64,000 nt of DNA, taken from the NCBI GenBank assembly GCA_009924735.1, contig RFQZ01000006.1:1-64000 (forward strand), read 5' to 3'. This document shows, piece by piece, positions 10,555 through 64,000 of this stretch (its first letter is position 1; each line of letters begins with the position of its first letter). The notes under the pieces are model-generated. The model saw nothing but the letters and a program-made list of their open reading frames with translations, did no database searches and was not told the DNA's origin. The translations under genes and the position numbers were made by a program. This stretch comes from Flavobacteriia bacterium (GTDB lineage: Bacteria; Bacteroidota; Bacteroidia; Flavobacteriales_D; Crocinitomicaceae).

Positions 10555-10562
10555 CAAAGATA
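10555..10562 (-). promoter_or_regulatory. TATCTTTG -7 element of rpsP-rimM
   Basis: The minus strand reads TATCTTTG, an exact TAnnTTTG match about 53 nt before the rpsP start, in the gap after the TonB receptor gene. It gives rpsP a conventional leader of roughly 45 nt. Confidence 0.6.
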
Positions 10563-14020: not shown

Positions 14021-14028
14021 TATTTTTG
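14021..14028 (+). promoter_or_regulatory. TATTTTTG -7 element of queE
   Basis: This is an exact TAnnTTTG match ending 7 nt before the queE ATG (14036). At the spacing seen for the SRP RNA, transcription would start at or next to the A of the ATG. Confidence 0.5.
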
Positions 14029-14035
14029 TTAAACC

Positions 14036-14635
14036 ATGGAAGATTTACAATACACCGTAATGGAACATTTTCACACCTTACAAGGGGAAGGATTTCACAC
14101 GGGACGTTCTGCCTATTTCATCCGCTTGTCAGGTTGTGACATTGGATGTGTTTGGTGTGATGTTAAAGAAAGTTGGGATGCGGATAATGGAGAAAAATAC
14201 ACGGTAAATGAATTGTTGGCCTTAACGGCTCAAAATGATTTCATCGTACTCACGGGTGGAGAACCTGCTATGCACGATTTAAATCCGATCACCCAAGCAT
14301 TGAAAAAACAGCAGAAAACCATCTCCATAGAAACCTCGGGTTGTTACCCACTAAAAGGTGAAATTGATTGGTACACCTTTTCTCCGAAAAAATTTAAAGC
14401 ACCGATTCAAGAAGCGTTTGACCTTGCCAATGAACTTAAGGTGGTTATTTACCATCCTTCTGATTTTGATTGGGCTACCAAACATGCTGAAAAAGTGAAC
14501 AAAAATTGCTTGCTTTACCTTCAACCCGAATGGAGTAAATTGGAAGCATTGGGTCCAGACATCATAGCCTTTGTTAAAAGTAACCCGGCCTGGCGTCTCT
14601 CGTTACAAACGCACAAGTACCTAAACATTCCCTAA
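14036..14635 (+). CDS. queE: 7-carboxy-7-deazaguanine synthase QueE
   Basis: This radical-SAM enzyme contracts 6-carboxytetrahydropterin to 7-carboxy-7-deazaguanine in queuosine biosynthesis. The 199-residue protein has the radical-SAM cysteines C34-DIG-C38-VW-C41, the N-terminal EHFHTLQGEGFHTGR typical of QueE, and TGGEPAMHD (about residue 78) as the SAM-binding GGEP motif. The spacing of the three cysteines is canonical C-x3-C-x2-C. It heads an operon in which the next ATG overlaps its stop codon by 1 bp. No other queuosine gene lies nearby. Confidence 0.93.
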   Translation: MEDLQYTVMEHFHTLQGEGFHTGRSAYFIRLSGCDIGCVWCDVKESWDADNGEKYTVNELLALTAQNDFIVLTGGEPAMHDLNPITQALKKQQKTISIETSGCYPLKGEIDWYTFSPKKFKAPIQEAFDLANELKVVIYHPSDFDWATKHAEKVNKNCLLYLQPEWSKLEALGPDIIAFVKSNPAWRLSLQTHKYLNIP

Positions 14636-18098: not shown

Positions 18099-19448
18099 TT
18101 AATTTTGAACCACGAATTCTACACGTCGGTTACGTGCCCATTGTAATTCTTTGTCGCTTGGATCTTCATCTGAAGAGGCTTCTTTTGTATTTGGCATTGA
18201 AGCACCTTTTGGGTCAATCATGAAACGGCTTTCTGAAATTCCTCCTTTGATCAAAAGCGCTTTGATGAGTTCTCCACGTTTTTCATCCATGTTTTCTAAG
18301 TCTTCTTTCAGGTCTTCAAATTCCTCAGCTGCCCTGTCTTCTTCTTCATCATTGTGGGTTAACACAGTAATTTTGACATTTGGATTTGCCTTCATTTGTT
18401 CGATTACATAATCGATTGAGCTTTTTCCAGTTGATGACAAGTTTGACTTGCCAAAAGCGTAATAAATCGTTTGTGCACCAATTTTTTCTGCAATGGTCAT
18501 TTTATCAGAAACCACAGGTTCGATGGTCATTACGACGGTAGAATATTCGTAGGAAGCTGCAGCAGTATCTGCTTTAAAGCAATGACACTCTGTTTTATTG
18601 GCCACTTCTTTGATTCGGATGTTATCGATGTAATAATAGGCTAGAGGTAAAAGCGTTGCCGCCTCTGCACCTGCTTCTAGTTTTGTTATTTTCTTTTGAA
18701 CCATTGCCGTGGTTTTGTCATTGATCATAAAATTACCAATCACCACACCGGTTTCATCGCCTTTTGCCTTGTATACGTTACAAACTTTATCCCAATCGGA
18801 GTAGCTATTGTAAACACGATTTTTGTAATTTGTGATTAACCTTCCTTCTTCAAAATTTACTTGACCGCCTGTTGCCATTTCAATTTTTTCGTATTCAGCG
18901 TGATTTTTAACAAACATCATCCCGATGTTGTTGGTCGCATATTTAGAAGCTTCGGCCAAGGAAATGGACATTTCTACACAGTAAAATTTTCCGGGTGTCA
19001 TTTTTTTCAATTTTCCTTTCGCATCAACAAAAGGAATGGTGATGTAGGTTTTTTCTTTTTGCAACTTTCCTGGTTTGTAGGTCACAATTCCTGCGTATGC
19101 ATTGTTTTCAGCTTTAGGATTGATGAAAAGCAAACGGTCGTTGGTTGTAAGGCTTTCATCTTTTGGATTCTTAGGCGCTGCAAAACCATAGATGTTTTGT
19201 CCTGCACCGTAATCGCCAGATCCAAAGAATATATCTGCAGGGTATTCGACAATGGTTGGTTCAAGACCTTCTATGGCGATGATTTGTCCGGGTTCAGAAA
19301 TTTCTGAAATGGATTTATCTTTAAAATCTTCGAAGGTACTGTTTAAAAACAATGCACTTTTATCTCCTTTTTTCTGAGCGAATGCAGCATTGCTTACGAG
19401 TAAAATCAACAAAGTGATTGCTGCTAGGTTAAGTTGGTTTCGTTTCAT
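18099..19448 (-). CDS. OmpA-family outer-membrane protein
   Basis: The 449-residue protein has a signal peptide (LAAITLLILLVSNAAFAQ) and a central beta-rich region of about 290 residues with no family I recognise. Its C-terminal OmpA-like domain (about 330-449) has SIDYVIEQMKANPNVKITVLTHNDEEEDR and ends ARNRRVEFVVQN. The peptidoglycan-binding arm carries an acidic helical insert (EEFEDLKEDLENMDEKRGEL), and the usual GHTDxxG is replaced by LTHNDEE, so peptidoglycan binding may be altered. Its start lies inside the end of hemE (20-bp overlap), implying cotranscription. Confidence 0.82.
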   Translation of the reverse strand: MKRNQLNLAAITLLILLVSNAAFAQKKGDKSALFLNSTFEDFKDKSISEISEPGQIIAIEGLEPTIVEYPADIFFGSGDYGAGQNIYGFAAPKNPKDESLTTNDRLLFINPKAENNAYAGIVTYKPGKLQKEKTYITIPFVDAKGKLKKMTPGKFYCVEMSISLAEASKYATNNIGMMFVKNHAEYEKIEMATGGQVNFEEGRLITNYKNRVYNSYSDWDKVCNVYKAKGDETGVVIGNFMINDKTTAMVQKKITKLEAGAEAATLLPLAYYYIDNIRIKEVANKTECHCFKADTAAASYEYSTVVMTIEPVVSDKMTIAEKIGAQTIYYAFGKSNLSSTGKSSIDYVIEQMKANPNVKITVLTHNDEEEDRAAEEFEDLKEDLENMDEKRGELIKALLIKGGISESRFMIDPKGASMPNTKEASSDEDPSDKELQWARNRRVEFVVQN

Positions 19449-20469
19449 GGTTTTTGACGGTTTTAATTAAAACTTTTACTTTTTCTGGATCCACATCGGG
19501 ATAAACACCGTGTCCCAAATTTACAATATGTCTTTGACTTACAAAGGAATTCAATAATTTATTTGCTTCCGTTTCGATAACTTTATCGGGTGCATAAAGC
19601 AAACAAGGATCCAAATTTCCTTGAAGTGTTTTTGATTCCCCAACCAAATTCCTAATTTCCTTCATGTCCATATTCCAATCCAATCCCAAGGTGGTACAAT
19701 TTAACGTTGCCAAATCCGGCATGGAAGCAATTGCTCCTTTCGAGAAAACCGTAAAGGGAAATCCTGGAAAGTGAGACATAATTCTTTCGATGTATTTAAT
19801 TCCAAATTCTTGGTATTGTTCCCTTCCAAGGATTCCTGCCCAAGAATCAAACAATTGTAAAGCATCAACACCGGCTTGAATTTGCAACTTCATATAAGCT
19901 ATGGTAATTTCGGTGATGCGCGCAAGCAATTGGTGTGCCAACTCAGGATGGGTGTAGAGCAATTTCCTAGATTCCGAAAATGTTTTGGAACCTTTCCCTT
20001 CCACCATGTAACAGAAGATCGTCCATGGAGCGCCTGCAAACCCAATGAGGGGTACTCGATTGGCTAAATTCGTCTTGGTTAACTTGATGGCTTCGAACAC
20101 ATAAGAAAGTCGATCTGCTACATCAATGTCATCATCTAAATGGACAAGGTCATCAACCGAGCGAATGGTTTTTGAAAACCATGGGCCTTTGGCTTCAATC
20201 ATTTCATATTTCAAACCCATTGCATCTGGAACGACGAGAATGTCTGAGAATAGAATGGCCGCGTCCACGTCAAGGATGTCGACAGGTTGAATGGTAACTT
20301 CCGAGGCCAAGGCTGGGGTTTCAACCAATTCCTTAAATCCGCTTATTTTAGAACGAATCGCCCGATATTCCGGTAAAATTCTTCCTGCTTGACGCATCAA
20401 CCAAACGGGATATCTTTCAATGGCTTCTCCGCGATGGGCTCGTAAGTATAAATCGTTTCTTAATTGCAT
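19429..20469 (-). CDS. hemE: uroporphyrinogen decarboxylase HemE
   Basis: HemE decarboxylates uroporphyrinogen III to coproporphyrinogen III in heme biosynthesis. The 346-residue protein starts MQLRNDLYLRAHRGE and contains the family signatures PVWLMRQAGR (about 20-29) and GFAGAPWTIFCYMVEG (about 140-155). The ATG at 20469 is chosen over one 18 bp upstream because a TATATTTG promoter box sits at 20475-20482. It is followed by the overlapping OmpA gene; no other heme genes are in the window. Confidence 0.96.
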   Translation of the reverse strand: MQLRNDLYLRAHRGEAIERYPVWLMRQAGRILPEYRAIRSKISGFKELVETPALASEVTIQPVDILDVDAAILFSDILVVPDAMGLKYEMIEAKGPWFSKTIRSVDDLVHLDDDIDVADRLSYVFEAIKLTKTNLANRVPLIGFAGAPWTIFCYMVEGKGSKTFSESRKLLYTHPELAHQLLARITEITIAYMKLQIQAGVDALQLFDSWAGILGREQYQEFGIKYIERIMSHFPGFPFTVFSKGAIASMPDLATLNCTTLGLDWNMDMKEIRNLVGESKTLQGNLDPCLLYAPDKVIETEANKLLNSFVSQRHIVNLGHGVYPDVDPEKVKVLIKTVKNHETKPT

Positions 20470-20474
20470 GCCCG

Positions 20475-20482
20475 CAAATATA
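20475..20482 (-). promoter_or_regulatory. TATATTTG -7 element of hemE
   Basis: The minus strand reads TATATTTG, an exact TAnnTTTG match 5 nt before the hemE ATG, in the 33-bp gap after ung. It implies a leaderless or near-leaderless hemE transcript. Confidence 0.5.
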
Positions 20483-21174: not shown

Positions 21175-22502
21175 AAATCTGTCAATACGTCTTGAATTTT
21201 TTTCAGGAGATCCGCATGTTTTTGATGTAAGCTCTCAAGACTCAATTTCGAAACTTTTCGCATCCGAACCAATTTCTCAATATGTGATTTTGCAGCCAAT
21301 GCAATCCCTGCAAACAATCCGATGCATAAAAAGTAAACCACAACAACGGTAAGGTTCAGGGCGCAGTTAAATGGAAGCCACTGAGGCGTAATAAAGAGAA
21401 GGGGGAGATTCAAGAAAAGTACGCTAAAGATGGCAGCAACCATTTTCGTGGAACTCCAGAAGACTGGGCGTTTAAATTTTTTCTCCACCCAAGATTTAAT
21501 GACAAAATAAGGTATACCTGCATGAATCAACCCAAGAAGAATAAACGGAAATAGCAAAACTACATACAGGATTCGCTGGGGAGCTTTCCATCCATGATTT
21601 TCAGCTGCGAATCTTTCTGCTTCGGTAATGCCCATCTTTTTTAAAGACATGTTATACGCTTCCAGTTCTGCTCTTAAGGGTTTTAACAATGCAAGTGCTT
21701 CCTCATTGCGATTGTTTAGCCACAGTCCTAATTTTTTCCCATACTCCCAACGCTCTGTGACGTTTAAATCTGAATCAAAACAGGTTGGATGAAGGCCTTT
21801 TCGTGTGAACATCATGAGGTTTTCATGAAAATCAGTCCATTCTGTATCGTGCACATCAATCAGTATGGAACTGAGGTCTTTTTCTAATGCTTTTGTTAGC
21901 TCATTGATCACCTTGGCAGGGTTTGCTTCATATGCTTCGCGGTAATCATTCAACAGAATCCTATTGCCAGCTGAAATAACTAGGTCGCTTCTGCGCAAGT
22001 TGACATCGGCATAATTCATTCCAATTGACTGAACATACATTGGGTATTTCCAATCGCAAAATTCCAAAGCAGAAAATCCGATGCGAAAGGGTCCTTTTTT
22101 GAGGGGGTTCAGTTTCCTTTGAATTCTATCCTCTGTAAATCCTTCGCCAAAAATCAATATGTTTCTGTTTCCTTTGAGGATTGCGTTGGTTTTTTGAAAA
22201 ATGACTGCGTTTTTCTCTTTGGTATTCACATTGTCACGTTGACGGTAGATGGGCAGCATGTGTGAAAGCCAGAAAATGGGTTTGGTAAATCGATTAAATA
22301 CATCCGACCGGGTCATAAAAAAAACAATCGGTCGACGCAACGCAGCAATGATCAATGGATCCATGAAGGAACCTGGGTGATTGCTTACAAAAATGGTCCT
22401 GCCAAACCAAAAAGGATTTTTGTTAACCACATGAATTTGCCGATAATACAATCGAAAGGAATATTTAAAGGCAAACCAAAGGAATAGGTAAAGTAAACGC
22501 AT
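21171..22502 (-). CDS. PlsC-like acyltransferase
   Basis: The 443-residue membrane protein has an N-terminal acyltransferase domain with motif I NHPGSFMD (NHxxxxD, about residues 41-48) and a GEGFTED stretch near 119-125 as motif III. It belongs to the glycerol-3-phosphate/1-acylglycerol-3-phosphate acyltransferase superfamily. The C-terminal third has two hydrophobic hairpins (about 305-330 and 350-400) and a coiled tail, making it longer than a typical PlsC; it may acylate another lipid. It is translationally coupled to ung. The TAATTTCG box 3 nt before the ATG (22506-22513) resembles the promoters nearby. Confidence 0.8.
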   Translation of the reverse strand: MRLLYLFLWFAFKYSFRLYYRQIHVVNKNPFWFGRTIFVSNHPGSFMDPLIIAALRRPIVFFMTRSDVFNRFTKPIFWLSHMLPIYRQRDNVNTKEKNAVIFQKTNAILKGNRNILIFGEGFTEDRIQRKLNPLKKGPFRIGFSALEFCDWKYPMYVQSIGMNYADVNLRRSDLVISAGNRILLNDYREAYEANPAKVINELTKALEKDLSSILIDVHDTEWTDFHENLMMFTRKGLHPTCFDSDLNVTERWEYGKKLGLWLNNRNEEALALLKPLRAELEAYNMSLKKMGITEAERFAAENHGWKAPQRILYVVLLFPFILLGLIHAGIPYFVIKSWVEKKFKRPVFWSSTKMVAAIFSVLFLNLPLLFITPQWLPFNCALNLTVVVVYFLCIGLFAGIALAAKSHIEKLVRMRKVSKLSLESLHQKHADLLKKIQDVLTDL

Positions 22503-22505
22503 GTG

Positions 22506-22601
22506 CGAAATTAGAAATATTCTCCAAGTTTTTTCAACAACGGAATTGAGAATAACTTTATGAAGAAGGCGAACGACCTTTTAATCTTATCCTTATTTTC
22601 G
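22506..22601. promoter_or_regulatory. divergent promoter region between the acyltransferase gene and ddl
   Basis: Two near-consensus -7 boxes of the form TAnnTTCG face outward: TAATTTCG on the minus strand at 22506-22513 (3 nt from the acyltransferase ATG) and TATTTTCG on the plus strand at 22594-22601 (4 nt from the ddl ATG). Each differs from TAnnTTTG at one position. Confidence 0.4.
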
Positions 22602-22605
22602 TTGC

Positions 22606-23583
22606 ATGCAGACAATCGGAATCTTTTGCGGCGGACTCTCTTCGGAATTTGACATTTCTATAAAGAGTGCTGAAACCATTCTTACAAACTTGCCTTCAAA
22701 CTACAGGGCGTTAAAAGTAATCGTGTCCGAAGGGGCATGGAAATCTGAATTTAATGGGAAGCAAGGTGTTTTTGATTTAAATACGTGTTCAGCGACCATC
22801 GAAGGAGATACCGTTCATTTCGACGCTGCCATTGTGTACATACATGGAAATCCTGGTGAAAACGGTAAAATTCAGGCGTACTTGGATTTGTTTGAAAAAC
22901 CTTATGTGAATCCGGACGTACTCGCTTCAGCCTTATCGTTTGACAAATGGTACTGCAATCAATTTCTTAAATCCTTTGGATTCCCAGTTGCAAAGTCGGT
23001 TTTTTTAGGACAAGGTGAATCGTACGAAGTTTCAAAAATTGTAGAAGACCTTTCGCTTCCTCTTTTTGTTAAACCTACAGGTTCTGGGTCAAGTTATGGG
23101 ATAAGCAAAGTGAAGCACCTCGATGAATTAGATACTGCCATTGCAAGTGCATTTAAGGAAGGACCAACGATTGTTTTAGAGTCTTTTTTGGATGGCATTG
23201 AGGTCACCTGTGGGGTTTTTAGAAACCAAGAATCATTGATGGCATTGCCATTAACAGAGATTGTCAGTGAAAACGATTTTTTTGACTACGAAGCGAAATA
23301 CTTAGGGAAATCTCAAGAAATTACACCCGCTCGGATTTCAGATGAAAGCCGCATTAAAATTCAAAGCCTAGCGAAGGAGGTTTACAAGGTACTTCGGCTG
23401 CGCTCCATTGCAAGAATTGATTTCATCCTTGTCGATGAAACACCCTATATCATTGAAGTCAACACCACGCCGGGATTTTCTAAGGAAAGCATTGTACCCA
23501 AGATGTTGGCCGTTGAACAAATGAGCATCTCTACTTTTTGGGAAATCATCCTATCAACCGAACTTGAAGGAAGCAAATCTTAA
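22606..23583 (+). CDS. ddl: D-alanine--D-alanine ligase
   Basis: This ATP-grasp enzyme makes the D-Ala-D-Ala dipeptide of peptidoglycan. The 325-residue protein has the N-terminal GGLSSEFDISIKSA, an IHGNPGENGKIQAYL segment (substrate loop region), ATP-grasp strands at LFVKPTGSGSSYGISKV (about 146-162), and the C-terminal metal-binding stretch IARIDFILVDETPYIIEVNTTPG. It runs toward dacB, whose product trims the same D-Ala-D-Ala bond; the stops are 16 bp apart. Confidence 0.95.
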   Translation: MQTIGIFCGGLSSEFDISIKSAETILTNLPSNYRALKVIVSEGAWKSEFNGKQGVFDLNTCSATIEGDTVHFDAAIVYIHGNPGENGKIQAYLDLFEKPYVNPDVLASALSFDKWYCNQFLKSFGFPVAKSVFLGQGESYEVSKIVEDLSLPLFVKPTGSGSSYGISKVKHLDELDTAIASAFKEGPTIVLESFLDGIEVTCGVFRNQESLMALPLTEIVSENDFFDYEAKYLGKSQEITPARISDESRIKIQSLAKEVYKVLRLRSIARIDFILVDETPYIIEVNTTPGFSKESIVPKMLAVEQMSISTFWEIILSTELEGSKS

Positions 23584-23599: not shown

Positions 23600-25051
23600 C
23601 TACAATCCTGAAAGGGAATTGAGTATTTTCTCCATTTTTGAAACCACATGAGACGTAGCACAGGTGAAGCCATTCACGGTTACAGCAAAAACAAAGTCCC
23701 GTCCAGAAAGTGAGTGAATGTAGCCTGCGTAGGATTTAATTCCGGTCATGCTTCCGCTTTTTGCACAAATCTTCCCCTCCCCCATTTGGTCATTGCAAAG
23801 GTCTCTGATCGTACCTGAAACCCCAGCGGTCGGAAGGGAAGCAAAATATAGGTTGAAATTCGGAGAATGGTACATATACTTTAACAATTCACAAAAATGA
23901 GACGCGGATATTTTGTTTTCCCTTGACAATCCACTCCCATCAAAAATGCGCAATCCTGATGTATCTATTTTACTCCCCCAGTAGGTGTGTTCCACGTTCA
24001 ATGCGGATGCATTGGTTCCATCTCCTGTAATTTTATATCCTACCCCATTGAGTAAACCTTCGGCGAAAAAATTGACACTTCGTTCGTTGGTCCAAGTTGC
24101 AATTTCATCTACATTTCTTCCTTTTTCAGATAACAGCAGCGTTATCATATCGTAATCTGGTCGTTTCAATTTAGCCAAGCGCATGGTTTTGACTTCACCT
24201 GTCAAAAGGATTCCCTTTGAGACAAGTACATTTCTGAACACTTCGGCAAAATTCAATTCTGGATCTGGAATGGATCCTTTCACCATGTAACTGGATTTGT
24301 AGGCTGGAAGCCTACCACTGGCACTTCGCGAATAATCATAAGGATATCCGTACACATTTGAATGATCCCCCTTGATTCGTGCGGAAACAATCCTACTGTT
24401 GAAATACAATTGGGATTGCTTGGGATAGGTGGCTATCAATTTGGCTTTTGTCCCAGGTTTTCCAGTAGCGAAGTAATATTTCAGGATGTTATCGTACCAA
24501 TTGATTCCCGCGGGAAACGCACCATAATAATTCCCTAGGTCTGCAGCCGACCAACCTAAGGGCGCGCCGTTGTACCCAAAATCTGACCCGTCGATGATTA
24601 TGTTTCCTTTCACCTCGTGCAATCCCATTGCAATTAATGAATCCGCCCAACGGTTCAAGACATCGAGTTCCAATCCATCGGCATTGAAAAACTTACTTCC
24701 TAGGGTGACATCCCCTCCCCCTTTCACCCAAAGATTTCCAGTCAACGTTCCCTTCAAAATGGGCGCATCGGCATAAACCCCCGTCTGAAATTGGTAAGAC
24801 GGACCTAAGAGTTCATACGCCAGGGCAGTGGTAAACAACTTTGTCGTAGAGGCTGTAGCAAAGGACTTCTTTGGATTCCATTTCAACAAGGTATCCCCAG
24901 TTTTTATATCGATGGCCAAGATAGAAATCTTTGAATTTAGCAACACCGGATCCGTGGTTAATTCAAACAAAGCGGCAGCAGGCTCTTGTCCCCATGCCCA
25001 ACTTTGAAGCATTGCGAAAGCAATATAGCTGTATCTTAGCAGAAATTTCAC
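23600..25051 (-). CDS. dacB: D-alanyl-D-alanine carboxypeptidase/endopeptidase (PBP4, S13 family)
   Basis: From a GTG at 25051 the protein has 483 residues and starts with a clean signal peptide (KFLLRYSYIAFAMLQSWAWGQ after the initiator). The active-site SxxK is STTK (68-71 in this numbering), the second motif is SVN in NERSVNFFAEG, and the third is KSG in CAKSGSMTG, all as in low-molecular-mass class C PBPs. The enzyme cleaves terminal D-Ala or crosslinks in the periplasm. A TTG nine codons upstream is rejected because it would spoil the signal peptide and because a CAATTTTG box lies between (25056-25063). Confidence 0.92.
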   Translation of the reverse strand: MKFLLRYSYIAFAMLQSWAWGQEPAAALFELTTDPVLLNSKISILAIDIKTGDTLLKWNPKKSFATASTTKLFTTALAYELLGPSYQFQTGVYADAPILKGTLTGNLWVKGGGDVTLGSKFFNADGLELDVLNRWADSLIAMGLHEVKGNIIIDGSDFGYNGAPLGWSAADLGNYYGAFPAGINWYDNILKYYFATGKPGTKAKLIATYPKQSQLYFNSRIVSARIKGDHSNVYGYPYDYSRSASGRLPAYKSSYMVKGSIPDPELNFAEVFRNVLVSKGILLTGEVKTMRLAKLKRPDYDMITLLLSEKGRNVDEIATWTNERSVNFFAEGLLNGVGYKITGDGTNASALNVEHTYWGSKIDTSGLRIFDGSGLSRENKISASHFCELLKYMYHSPNFNLYFASLPTAGVSGTIRDLCNDQMGEGKICAKSGSMTGIKSYAGYIHSLSGRDFVFAVTVNGFTCATSHVVSKMEKILNSLSGL

Positions 25052-25117
25052 GGTACAAAATTGGAAAAACAATGGCAATTTCTTTCATCAAAAATTTTAA
25101 CTTTTCAACAATAGCCT

Positions 25118-34852: not shown

Positions 34853-34860
34853 TAATTTTG
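34853..34860 (+). promoter_or_regulatory. TAATTTTG -7 element of trxA
   Basis: This is an exact TAnnTTTG match 32 nt before the trxA ATG, giving a leader of about 25 nt in the short gap after uvrA. Confidence 0.5.
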
Positions 34861-36013: not shown

Positions 36014-36021
36014 TAATTTTG
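36014..36021 (+). promoter_or_regulatory. TAATTTTG -7 element of the lpx operon
   Basis: This is an exact TAnnTTTG match ending 4 nt before the lpxD ATG (36026). If used, it would give an essentially leaderless message for the lipid A operon. Confidence 0.45.
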
Positions 36022-36025
36022 AAAC

Positions 36026-37072
36026 ATGGAATTTACAGCTGGACAAATTGCTGAAATATTAGAAGGTACGGTTGAAGGAAACTCGGATTCCAAAGTAAGC
36101 GGTTTGGCGAAGATTGAGGAGGGTGAATCAGGCATGTTATCGTTTCTTTCAAATCCAACCTACGAATCATACATCTACGCCACAAAGGCCAGCATTTGCA
36201 TTGTTAACGATGGTTTTACACCTTCAAAACCACTTCCATCTACGCTTACGTTAATTCGTGTCGCAGATGCCTATGGCTGTTTTGCAAAACTCCTAGAGTT
36301 ATATAATCAAAGCAAAAAAAGACAACCTGAAATAGAACAACCTAATTTTATTCATGCCACAGCGAAATTGGGGGAATCGTTATACATTGGTGCTTTTGCC
36401 TACATCGGCAAATACGTCACCCTCGCGGATGGCGTATCCATTCACCCAAATGCTTTTATTGGTGACCATGTGAAAATCGGTGCAAATACGATCATTCATG
36501 CAGGTGTGAAAATTTATGACAGCTCTATCATCGGTGAAAATTGCATCATCCACGCAGGTACTGTCATTGGCTCCGATGGGTTTGGCTTTGCGCCAGACGC
36601 TCAAGGGGTTTTCAGCAAAGTACCTCAAATTGGAAATGTTGTCATCGAAGACGACGTTGAAATTGGTGCAAACACGACCATTGACCGGGCGACCATGGGG
36701 TCTACCTATATTCGAAAAGGCGTAAAAATTGACAACCTCTGTCAAATTGCGCACAACGTTGACATCGATATGCATTCTGCTTTGGCTGCGCAAGTAGGCA
36801 TCGCCGGGTCCGCAAAAATCGGTAAACATGTGATGATTGGTGGACAAGCCGGGATCAGCGGACATTTACACATTGCAGACGGCACAAAAATCGTTGCACA
36901 ATCAGGGGTTCCTGCCACTGTAAAAAAAGCCGAAACCTTAATGGGCTCACCTGCCATCCCCTTATTAGATTTCAAAAAATCATACATCGGGTATCGCAGG
37001 TTACCGGAAATATTGGACGATGTAAGGAACCTAAAAAAAGAAGTGCAATCACTTAAGGATACGAAAGGATAA
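36026..37072 (+). CDS. lpxD: UDP-3-O-(3-hydroxyacyl)glucosamine N-acyltransferase
   Basis: LpxD adds the N-linked hydroxyacyl chain in lipid A synthesis. The 348-residue protein has the N-terminal uridine-binding domain (about 1-100) and a left-handed parallel beta-helix of hexapeptide repeats (about 110-300; IGAFAYIGKYVTLADGVSI...IGDHVKIGANTIIHAGVKI). The catalytic His lies in the conserved QIAHNVDI segment, and a C-terminal helix ends the protein. It is 4 bp from lpxC-fabZ. Confidence 0.96.
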   Translation: MEFTAGQIAEILEGTVEGNSDSKVSGLAKIEEGESGMLSFLSNPTYESYIYATKASICIVNDGFTPSKPLPSTLTLIRVADAYGCFAKLLELYNQSKKRQPEIEQPNFIHATAKLGESLYIGAFAYIGKYVTLADGVSIHPNAFIGDHVKIGANTIIHAGVKIYDSSIIGENCIIHAGTVIGSDGFGFAPDAQGVFSKVPQIGNVVIEDDVEIGANTTIDRATMGSTYIRKGVKIDNLCQIAHNVDIDMHSALAAQVGIAGSAKIGKHVMIGGQAGISGHLHIADGTKIVAQSGVPATVKKAETLMGSPAIPLLDFKKSYIGYRRLPEILDDVRNLKKEVQSLKDTKG

Positions 37073-50474: not shown

Positions 50475-50482
50475 CAAAGATA
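50475..50482 (-). promoter_or_regulatory. TATCTTTG -7 element of the DUF4494-pdxH-M16 operon
   Basis: The minus strand reads TATCTTTG, an exact TAnnTTTG match 18 nt before the DUF4494 ATG, giving a leader of about 12 nt. Confidence 0.55.
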
Positions 50483-51065: not shown

Positions 51066-51632
51066 TTACTGAAGTCTATGGTTCACAATTTGAGAAACCT
51101 TTTCAATGAAATGTTGGGGTTTAAATGTCCGCCACTCAAGGTCGTCCAGCGGTCCACCCATGGCCATGTATTGGTCGATGTGAATGCGTTGAAATTCCTT
51201 AGATACGTGGTCAAGCATGTTCACTGCAGCAATCCATCCGTCTTCGATGTCATCAAACCATTCCTCGTAATAGCAATCATCCGAATAATGAAAATTGAGT
51301 ACGTTTTCAAAGATGAGGATAAAGCACTTGACGCCTTCATTGATCAAGGGGTTAATGACATTGGATTTCAGTATCATGATGTCGTTTTCAATGGCATCGT
51401 TCCATTCGCCAATGCACTCAATTATGGCTGTATTTTGAAGGTAATCGACATACAACACTTTGAGGTATAAGGTACTTGAACCGAAGGAATCCCATTGTGG
51501 GTGAATGACATAGTTGTAAATTTTGTTCGAAAACTCGAATTCGCTGTAGGTCCGCCTATAAAAAGGAGACTGAACATCTTCTGAGGCGATGTAATCCCCC
51601 CGCCATCTGTAAAAAGGCTCAATTAAATGCAT
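51066..51632 (-). CDS. hypothetical protein, aromatic and acidic
   Basis: From the ATG at 51632 the product has 188 residues, starting MHLIEPFYRWRGDYIASEDV. It is unusually rich in Tyr, Trp, Phe, Asp and Glu (for example NFHYSDDCYYEEWFDDIEDG) and has no signal peptide. I recognise the overall look of a conserved Bacteroidota protein of unknown function but no named family. An earlier in-frame ATG (51668) is less likely because a TACTTTTG box lies between it and 51632. It is divergent from the 51760 gene. Confidence 0.7.
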   Translation of the reverse strand: MHLIEPFYRWRGDYIASEDVQSPFYRRTYSEFEFSNKIYNYVIHPQWDSFGSSTLYLKVLYVDYLQNTAIIECIGEWNDAIENDIMILKSNVINPLINEGVKCFILIFENVLNFHYSDDCYYEEWFDDIEDGWIAAVNMLDHVSKEFQRIHIDQYMAMGGPLDDLEWRTFKPQHFIEKVSQIVNHRLQ

Positions 51633-51635
51633 GTA

Positions 51636-51643
51636 CAAAAGTA
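51636..51643 (-). promoter_or_regulatory. TACTTTTG -7 element 3 nt before the 51632 start
   Basis: The minus strand reads TACTTTTG, an exact TAnnTTTG match only 3 nt before the ATG at 51632. It implies leaderless transcription if active. Confidence 0.4.
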
Positions 51644-56013: not shown

Positions 56014-56021
56014 TACATTTG
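56014..56021 (+). promoter_or_regulatory. TACATTTG -7 element of the SRP RNA gene
   Basis: This is an exact TAnnTTTG match 6 nt before the first base of the predicted RNA (56028), with a TTG at 55994-55996 as a possible -33 element. The geometry agrees with known promoters of the phylum and can serve as the local reference for spacing from -7 box to transcription start. Confidence 0.75.
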
Positions 56022-56027
56022 CAGATA

Positions 56028-56123
56028 GGGTAAGTCTTTTACGACCAGCTCCCTCTTAACCCTCCAGGACGGGAACGTAGCAAAGGCAGGAGGTTGTAGC
56101 GGTGCGATAGAAGTAGCTTACCC
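56028..56123 (+). ncRNA. ffs: small bacterial signal recognition particle RNA (4.5S-type)
   Basis: GGGTAAG (56028-56034) pairs with CTTACCC (56117-56123), closing a single long hairpin of about 96 nt. The apical region reads CTCCAGGACGGGAACGTAGC then AAAGGCAGGAG, closely matching the conserved SRP domain IV loop of E. coli 4.5S RNA (CAGGTCCGGAAGGAAGCAG, CAAGGCAG), with the GGGAACG apical loop and flanking asymmetric loop. A T-rich run (56124-56133) follows as terminator. The RNA binds Ffh and docks with FtsY, which is encoded 12 kb away. Confidence 0.88.
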
Positions 56124-56148
56124 TTCTTTTTTTAACCCTTTTCGAGCC

Positions 56149-63051: not shown

Positions 63052-63059
63052 TACCTTTG
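63052..63059 (+). promoter_or_regulatory. TACCTTTG -7 element of the epimerase-CBS gene
   Basis: This is an exact TAnnTTTG match ending 5 nt before the ATG at 63065; no clear -33 element is seen. It implies a leaderless or near-leaderless transcript. Confidence 0.45.
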
Positions 63060-63064
63060 CCTCG

Positions 63065-64000
63065 ATGAAGATTTCAGCTTCTATTTACAGCGACGCGCGT
63101 CAAAACCTTCAGCAAACCATCTTGGCATTGGACGAACATCAGGTAGATTTACTCCACGTTGATTGCAATGATGACCTAGCCGTATTTGACGACATCCTAC
63201 AAATCAGAACCTGGTGCTCACTTCCAATTGACCTGCACATCATCACGCCTACACCTTCTAAATTCTATCAAAAACTTTTGGATGTCCCTGTAGAATATGT
63301 CACTTTTCAACTGGAGCCTTTGGCTGAACCTTTGATTTGGCCCGCAGGGTTATCGGCCGCCAAAGGCGTAGCCGTTACCACCCCCACCTCCATCGATGCA
63401 TTTGATGCCCATACGGATTGTGATTTCATTCTGATCATGGCCACCATTCCCGGTCAATCTGGAGGCGTCTTCGATAAAGAAAATTTCAAGAAAATAAGAA
63501 CCTTCAGAAAACGATACCCCCACAAATCCATCCACGTGGATGGCGGCGTAAACGGGGAAGTTTCCTTCATCCTCCGAAACATGGGGGTGAGTACTTCTGT
63601 TTCGGGCTCTTACCTCTTCAAAGGTCCCAGCATCGGTCACGCCTTGCTCAACCTCACATCGAGAAACATGGCCTCTGCATTCCAAATTTCGGATTTCATG
63701 ATCCCATTGGAAGAATGTCCAGTCGTTATGGATGAAACCACCCACCTTAAAGAAATTCTTGAAACCATCGAAAATGGCAAATTAGGTTTCTGCCTCGTGG
63801 GTAACGAAGACCGTCAACTCAAAGGTTTGATTTCCAGTGCCGACATTCGCAAAGCCTTGCTCAAGAAAATTGACAACCCAAAAGACATCGCATTGACCGA
63901 TATGATCAATACCCATCCCGTGACCATAGAAGGGAAACAAACGGTACTTGAAATGCTTAAAAAAATGAAGACCTTAACCTTCCCGATCATGTACCTACCA
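63065..64000 (+). CDS. ribulose-phosphate 3-epimerase-like/CBS domain protein (cut by window edge)
   Basis: The visible 312 residues continue past the window. Residues 1 to about 205 form a ribulose-phosphate-3-epimerase-like TIM barrel that keeps the metal-ligand pattern: LLHVDCND (His and Asp), DLHIITPTP (His) and IHVDGGVNGE (Asp). Several loops differ from true Rpe, for example MATIPGQSGGVF in place of the usual NPGFGGQ-type loop. From about 215 a CBS pair begins (DFMIPLEECPVVMDETTHL...LKGLISSADIRKALL...ALTDMINTHPVTI). CBS modules usually sense adenosyl nucleotides. The enzyme's substrate and reason for the fusion are unknown. Confidence 0.82.
   Translation, partial: MKISASIYSDARQNLQQTILALDEHQVDLLHVDCNDDLAVFDDILQIRTWCSLPIDLHIITPTPSKFYQKLLDVPVEYVTFQLEPLAEPLIWPAGLSAAKGVAVTTPTSIDAFDAHTDCDFILIMATIPGQSGGVFDKENFKKIRTFRKRYPHKSIHVDGGVNGEVSFILRNMGVSTSVSGSYLFKGPSIGHALLNLTSRNMASAFQISDFMIPLEECPVVMDETTHLKEILETIENGKLGFCLVGNEDRQLKGLISSADIRKALLKKIDNPKDIALTDMINTHPVTIEGKQTVLEMLKKMKTLTFPIMYLP

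Follow-up and report, generated by a model that had tools for sequence, protein, structure and literature searches.

Does the messenger RNA (mRNA) of the queE gene of a Flavobacteriia bacterium of the family Crocinitomicaceae have a leader, or does it begin at or beside the initiation codon? The gene (7-carboxy-7-deazaguanine synthase, 14036..14635, forward strand; NCBIfam QueE models, below the curated cut-offs, and Pfam Radical_SAM/Fer4_12) lies in a stretch of 64,000 nucleotides (nt) of contig RFQZ01000006.1, which was analysed as a whole and is called the window. An exact TAnnTTTG box, TATTTTTG (14021..14028, forward strand), is found 7 nt before its ATG at 14036. The distance d counts the nt that separate a box from the start codon, with the bases of both excluded. 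Boxes at d=3-7 (near boxes) are most probably, with a probability of about 0.87, -7 elements of a sigma factor which would give leaderless or near-leaderless mRNAs beside an ordinary class with leaders. With the spacing of 4-5 nt between box and transcription start discussed below, the candidate near-leaderless queE mRNA is predicted to have a leader of about 2-3 nt.

The first-pass annotation of the window had listed five exact boxes and three with one mismatch 3-7 nt before start codons, and all letters and coordinates were confirmed. The exact boxes other than that of queE are TATATTTG at 20475..20482 (reverse strand, d=5) before the ATG at 20469 of hemE (uroporphyrinogen decarboxylase, 19429..20469; PF01208, E 1.5e-122), TAATTTTG at 36014..36021 (forward, d=4) before the ATG at 36026 of lpxD (36026..37072; PF04613), TACTTTTG at 51636..51643 (reverse, d=3) before the ATG at 51632 of a conserved gene at 51066..51632, here named the 51632 gene, and TACCTTTG at 63052..63059 (forward, d=5) before the ATG at 63065 of a ribulose-phosphate 3-epimerase-like gene with CBS (63065..64000, extending beyond the window end; PF00834, PF00571). 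The genes hemE, lpxD and 51632 are candidates for leaderless mRNAs. LpxD has a conserved N-terminus, M-E/K-F. The 51632 gene, with an MHxxEP N-terminus, has relatives in 29 of 32 genomes and was assigned no family in Pfam and NCBIfam scans. The boxes with one mismatch precede ddl (TATTTTCG, 22594..22601, forward, d=4; ATG at 22606), an acyltransferase-like gene with a weak AGP_acyltrn match below the cut-off (TAATTTCG, 22506..22513, reverse, d=3; ATG at 22502) and dacB, a Peptidase_S13 match (CAATTTTG, 25056..25063, reverse, d=4), the GTG of which at 25051 opens a hydrophobic N-terminus.

Taken by itself, the motif shows no enrichment in the window (58 TAnnTTTG matches versus 70.1 expected from shuffles), and the question is therefore one of position rather than of abundance. 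An exact box was found at d=3-7 in 4 of the 48 called genes of the window with usable upstream DNA, a number that excludes the epimerase gene, which leaves the window (P = 1.6e-4 with the background of 3.4 per 600 genes in the sample described next).

Position was analysed in stretches, the window included, that together cover 864 kb of 2,504,476 bases (34% of the genome). A simple custom hexamer gene caller, blind to the box, gave 626 genes, of which 600 had 120 nt of upstream DNA; the epimerase gene was too near the end of its stretch to be among these. The 600 genes had 39 exact boxes at d=3-7, 19 of them at exactly d=4, where the background (d=50-99) is 0.72 per position. Six were found at d=8-12, 28 at d=13-17 and 89 at d=8-60, and the genes with leaders have their box from 13 nt outward, beyond a trough at 8-12 nt. 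When the six letters were rearranged within the gapped frame, none of the 29 alternatives exceeded 8 occurrences at d=3-7 or 2 at d=4. Boxes with one mismatch also peak at d=4 (25 versus 5.7 per position), chiefly as TAnnTTTA (8) and TAnnTTCG (7), the latter being the form seen for the acyltransferase-like gene and for ddl. When boxes with one mismatch are included, those at d=3-7 exceed the background by a number equal to 11.3% of the genes. The share of exact boxes within 60 nt that are found at d=3-7 is 0.30 raw and 0.40 after background correction (bootstrap 0.28-0.55). A count without gene calls (box, N{d}, ATG, in 464 kb) gave a weak peak only, with 22 at d=4. A bias towards starts at d=4 caused by an in-frame stop in TAA or TAG boxes was rejected: TAT or TAC stands at this place in 9 of the 19 boxes, and other arrangements beginning with TA had no peak.

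The pattern was repeated in a congener (G015). Its 379 genes had 29 exact boxes at d=3-7 (17 at d=4), six at d=8-12 and 78 at d=8-60, a share of 0.27 raw and 0.32 corrected (0.21-0.44). Among 129 pairs of reciprocal best hits between the two genomes, 13 genes were boxed in the own genome, 11 in the congener and 6 in both (1.1 expected). A genome-wide lack of enrichment at -12 to -3 was to count against the first-pass annotation; the enrichment is present in 34% of the genome and in the congener, with a sharp maximum at 4 nt. Its proposals of many leaderless mRNAs and of two coexisting classes also stand, judging by position, peak and replication, with boxes at 3-7 nt or from 13 nt and few between. 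Within the window the class with leaders comprises rpsP (TATCTTTG, 10555..10562, reverse), trxA (TAATTTTG, 34853..34860, forward) and a DUF4494 gene (TATCTTTG, 50475..50482, reverse), which had been described as having ordinary leaders and are separated from their boxes by 53, 32 and 18 nt, respectively.

Several characters that were not used to select the near boxes also distinguish them. G at the nn positions was found in 3 of 68 near boxes (own genome 1/39, congener 2/29) versus 256 of 949 matches anywhere in the own sample (p 1.3e-6), and mapped promoters of Flavobacterium johnsoniae are reported to avoid G at these positions as well, giving TAHHTTTG (PMC6847099). For the start codon and its nearest bases, the genes of both genomes with a box at d=4 were compared with 824 genes having at least three mismatches there, those with two mismatches (52 own, 24 in the congener) being excluded from the -1 and GTG comparisons. 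A pyrimidine at -1 was present in 31 of 36 genes with an exact box versus 445 of 824 (p 6.7e-5). GTG starts made up 8 of 79 with an exact or one-mismatch box versus 13 of 824 (p 1.9e-4), and TTG starts 0 of 79 versus 16 of 824. A at -3, a mark of genes with leaders, was found in 8 of 36 exact d=4 genes versus 57 of 116 (p 0.003). A pyrimidine before a purine and a lost -3 context are what would be expected if the first base of the codon were the transcription start, with no leader.

The distance from box to transcription start had been calibrated on the gene for the small signal recognition particle (SRP) RNA, a noncoding yardstick (56021..56127, forward; Rfam RF04183) with the box TACATTTG at 56014..56021 on the same strand, which the first Rfam position overlaps. 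In the window the seventh base after the box opens the RNA helix, the beginning of which is not a mapped 5' end; in the six related loci with an uncut hit, all of which have the same box, the helix opens with the fourth (five loci) or fifth (one locus). The related loci agree with the distance of 4 or 5 nt reported for F. johnsoniae (PMC6847099) and with the box position of -12 to -5 reported for Flavobacterium psychrophilum (PMC9723704), and the calibration to the seventh base is consequently not general. A 7-nt rule was also rejected because boxes at 3-5 nt would then have destroyed the AUG. A spacing of 4-5 nt would place +1 on the A of AUG at d=4-5 and leave a leader of 1-3 nt at d=6-7.

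Conservation was scored gene by gene as a box, exact or one of two common variants, with an in-frame ATG or GTG at d=3-7, the own copy included. In the same genus lpxD had a near box in 21 of 21 usable loci, all at d=4, and the box was exact in 20. For hemE it was present in 18 of 19 loci at d=5-6, the exception having TTG at 2 and ATG at 8, and for the 51632 gene in 18 of 20 at d=3-4. The queE loci had it in 15 of 19, at d=3-7 and mostly 4. Two loci each of queE and the 51632 gene start with GTG, and where the codon is GTG it is still found 3-4 nt from the box. At the control offsets 8-12 there was one match for hemE and none for lpxD, queE, the 51632 gene or the epimerase gene. Of the example genes of the first-pass annotation, lpxD, hemE, the 51632 gene and queE, the last (7 nt in the window) being the loosest, thus bear the box as a conserved character, and the epimerase gene does not. 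In five congeners (L326, L329, L331, L332 and L333) the epimerase-CBS gene immediately follows that of the small SRP RNA; in the window 7 kb lie between them, and the epimerase gene has its own box. The usable loci do not include three lpxD loci with upstream DNA cut by contig ends (L039, L044, L045), two with queE split over two contigs (L259, L260) and one with a cut epimerase gene (L334). For lpxD, one genome with an N-terminal fragment of the gene (G017) and 9 further genomes of other families that hold lpxD are without a locus.

For lpxD, 78 named loci from the order and beyond were also compared, two others (L077, L079) being set aside since the match does not begin at residue 1. An exact box at d=3-7 was found in 49 of the 78, at d=5 in 33, d=4 in 11, d=6 in 4 and d=7 in 1. 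They include 18 of 25 Flavobacterium loci, F. johnsoniae among them (strain CI04, exact box at d=5), and none of the four loci named as Bacteroidales. In Winogradskyella and Confluentibacter (L105, L137, L142) homology starts at TTG or GTG and the box is 30-38 nt upstream; these lpxD genes seem, from their upstream sequences, to have leaders. Four records from metagenome-assembled genomes labelled Chryseobacterium gleum or Klebsiella pneumoniae (L072, L077, L087 and L140) have a flavobacterial LpxD, in L072 99% identical to that of the window, and their species labels look wrong.

Three other explanations of the near boxes were considered. According to one, genuine promoters precede start codons that were miscalled, and the true starts lie downstream, behind leaders of an ordinary 20-30 nt. 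This would fit the length of Bacteroidetes leaders, mostly about 20-30 nt, with a mode of 23 and a median of 32 reported for Bacteroides thetaiotaomicron (PMC7366714), and it would fit queE, which in 9 of its 19 loci within the genus has an internal in-frame ATG at a normal leader length, 28-32 nt from a box (matches also occur at offsets 13-17 in 4 loci, 18-22 in 2 and 23-27 in 4). The conserved N-termini of lpxD, hemE and the 51632 gene nevertheless begin at the codon proximal to the box, and the -1 pyrimidine and the GTG enrichment are tied to that codon. In queE the long form is the protein, since the amino acids preceding the internal Met (mostly P-V/I-M) show protein-level conservation across families; the QueE models align from residues 4-8 of this form, and however the N-terminal extension differs in length and sequence, the start codon keeps its place beside the box. 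A queE start at the internal Met was rejected on these grounds, although both starts may be in use, and miscalled starts are an improbable explanation of the near boxes as a whole. It is still more improbable that TAnnTTTG near the start is a translation element, such as a U-rich ribosome or S1 site, and no promoter. Bacteroidetes are without Shine-Dalgarno sites and their AT-rich upstream signals have been ascribed to S1 or to leaderless mRNAs (PMC5397173, PMC3160421). A noncoding RNA, that of the SRP, has the same box, however, in the window and in the related loci; the peak is one nucleotide wide and is shown by this letter order only, G is avoided as in mapped promoters, and the box competes with the A-rich context of genes with leaders.

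The boxes at 3-7 nt could also be internal or secondary promoters, with the main transcript starting upstream and the leaderless form a minor one. By the rule applied here, nine of the 39 near-box genes are not the first in their transcription unit, and hemE lies 33 nt behind a codirectional gene. The other 30 are divergent from the previous gene or at least 80 nt from it, and the exact lpxD box is kept at 4 nt in all but one of the usable same-genus loci; this explanation is unlikely. No functional theme was found among the 39 genes, for which no enrichment test was made; a Pfam scan of 35 of them outside the window, together with the four window genes, gave diverse families (metabolism, cell envelope, tRNA modification, a class II tRNA synthetase).

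A number of observations weigh against near boxes as promoters of leaderless mRNAs. The 5' ends are predicted from the DNA sequence, and the start codons come from a simple custom gene caller. Boxes at d=3 need a spacing of 3 nt, below the known 4-5 nt. No -33 element TTTG was visible by eye in the 19 upstream regions with d=4; this element is reported to be weak or absent in F. johnsoniae too (PMC6847099) and is no firm defining feature of the Bacteroidetes primary sigma factor promoter. The internal ATG of queE lies at a normal leader length, as described, and only 6 of 17 epimerase loci in the genus have a near box. The near box is kept in only part of the loci from other families within the order (lpxD 3/6, hemE 6/8, the 51632 gene 3/9, queE 3/9). 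Seven of the 13 boxed own genes have no near box in their reciprocal best hit in the congener, some of these partners being poor orthologues (27-34% identity).

Taking promoters of leaderless mRNAs as the preferred explanation, the boxes would serve the primary sigma factor of Bacteroidetes as -7 elements (consensus TAHHTTTG, spanning -12 to -5), and RNA polymerase would start from them at the first base of the initiation codon, A or G, or within a few nt of it. Needing no ribosome-binding site, the mRNA would then be translated from the AUG or GUG at its 5' terminus. One class of genes, with the box at 3-7 nt and a peak at 4, would be leaderless or nearly so, and a second, with the box at 13-31 nt and beyond, would have an ordinary short leader, with few genes between; the scarcity of boxes at d=8-12 points to an avoidance of leaders about 4-8 nt long. 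By its excess over background the leaderless class looks to be about 11-13% of genes, and in the genus about a tenth of genes would belong to it, kept gene by gene in evolution. The -7 element of the primary sigma factor promoter is present, as TAnnTTTG or TAHHTTTG, it is placed for a transcription start at the initiation codon as judged by DNA position and conservation, and the codon predicted to be 5'-terminal is AUG or GUG. The sequences show the motif, its position and peak, its conservation and the promoter and initiator signatures, and from them we infer where transcription starts and that translation proceeds from the 5' end; of the two, a predicted start on the initiation codon through the primary sigma factor is well supported, and initiation of the ribosome on a 5'-terminal AUG or GUG is most likely, by analogy with known leaderless systems. 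Ribosomes of Bacteroidia are reported to hide their anti-Shine-Dalgarno tail (PMC9976891), from which we infer that losing the leader would cost no Shine-Dalgarno pairing.

The near-box signal differs between lineages. Smaller samples gave, as exact boxes at d=3-7 out of those at d=3-60, 0/16 in F. johnsoniae CI04, 3/36 in Flavobacterium SLB02, 4/26 in Cellulophaga, 5/33 in a genome of another family of the order (G026) and 6/22 in G058; for samples of this size the background-corrected share is unusably noisy. The own genome and the congener together had 68 of 235 versus 7 of 78 in the three Flavobacteriaceae (p = 1.3e-4). With one mismatch allowed, the excess as a percentage of genes was 12.9 in the congener, 15.3 in G058, 3.0 in G026, 1.7 in SLB02, 0.9 in Cellulophaga and -3.6 in F. 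johnsoniae. The Flavobacterium and Cellulophaga samples thus show the signal weakly or not at all.

A survey of 80 genomes, hand-picked from those with counts at d=4, compared box-N4-ATG with a control, box-N10-ATG (d=4 and d=10; lpxD in Flavobacteriaceae is usually at d=5). The genus and its named near relatives (11 genomes) gave 1244 versus 466 (2.67). In ten named Flavobacteriaceae the excess was weaker yet present, 1045 versus 703 (1.49), with 117 versus 98 in F. johnsoniae CI04 and 149 versus 108 in SLB02. Genomes named as Bacteroidales had ratios of about 1 (Barnesiella 32:33, Marinilabiliaceae JC040 54:60, Perlabentimonas 71:58, a fen Bacteroidales 79:63). The own genome was moderate (100:50), Crocinitomix (156:117) and Lishizhenia (71:45) were low, and some other lineages exceeded the own genome (G063 60:10, G202 80:16, G058 95:22); the trait is therefore graded and no property of a single family. 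High ratios were also seen in a family of another class of Bacteroidota, f32 (G188 50:13, G192 33:9, G200 28:5, G146 41:12), which by these counts is perhaps an independent group rich in leaderless mRNAs.

A wider proposal is put forward tentatively, as somewhat less than an even chance. In part of the Flavobacteriales, and in one or more further lineages of Bacteroidota, leaderless initiation would be an old, gene-specific mode of major importance, with certain genes, lpxD first, locked by their promoter to the start codon before the families split; usage would differ widely between lineages, perhaps tracking a hidden or lost anti-Shine-Dalgarno. The 16S gene, the source of the anti-Shine-Dalgarno sequence, is absent from the assembly (0 of 1). 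An extended Shine-Dalgarno is reported before rpsU in many Flavobacteriales (PMC9976891); the own rpsU (bS21, L336) has no obvious one by eye in the 40 nt before its ATG.

How start codons are found without Shine-Dalgarno pairing in Bacteroidota is an open question, and leaderless mRNAs have been dismissed as too rare in the species studied, as stated in PMC6847099 and PMC9723704. The near box is a real, strong and conserved feature of the DNA, and would mark a known kind of mRNA, at a frequency unusual for a phylum in which it had been considered rare. If this is true for about a tenth of genes, including lpxD, hemE and queE, in whole lineages, the answer is lineage-dependent and can be tested among close relatives. 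A practical rule for calling starts in the group also follows, since TAHHTTTG 4 nt upstream marks the codon, GTG included.

Leaderless mRNAs in this phylum have been treated in several ways. One computational survey reports leaderless genes in 1 of 37 Bacteroidetes/Chlorobi genomes, at 2.4%, considering Pribnow-like boxes only (PMC3160421), base frequencies led to a proposal of leaderless mRNA and/or S1 for Bacteroidetes (PMC5397173), and leaderless mRNA has been linked with Flavobacteriia lacking CCUCC (PMC10783764). The literature search, with subscription journals and preprints outside it, returned no report of leaderless mRNAs in Crocinitomicaceae and no link of lpxD to leaderless mRNA in Bacteroidota. 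The arrangement resembles that of mycobacteria, in which a large minority of mRNAs without a leader exists beside those with one and a 5' ATG or GTG is reported to be necessary and sufficient for leaderless translation (PMC4633059), as GTG is enriched and TTG absent at d=4 here. It differs in being deduced from DNA, in a phylum without Shine-Dalgarno use and with a different sigma factor box. The near boxes are like the Bacteroidetes primary sigma factor promoter (TTTG/TAnnTTTG, revised to TAHHTTTG) in their letters, in the avoidance of G and, presumably, in the 4-5 nt spacing, and unlike it in that no -33 element was seen and the TAnnTTCG variant is common at d=4 (7/25 and 6/18 one-mismatch boxes). 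The promoter consensus and, presumably, the spacing are shared with B. thetaiotaomicron, F. psychrophilum and F. johnsoniae, and leaderless mRNAs are present there: about 3.7% of 5' untranslated regions are under 10 nt in the first (PMC7366714), 5.5% of mRNAs are leaderless in the second (PMC9723704) and 13% of 241 promoters in the third give leaders of at most 10 nt, the other 87% exceeding 10 nt (PMC6847099), figures that are shares of mapped mRNAs and not on a scale identical to the gene excess of 11-13%. Unlike in those species, 27-30% of the exact boxes within 3-60 nt (32-40% corrected) are found here at 3-7 nt.
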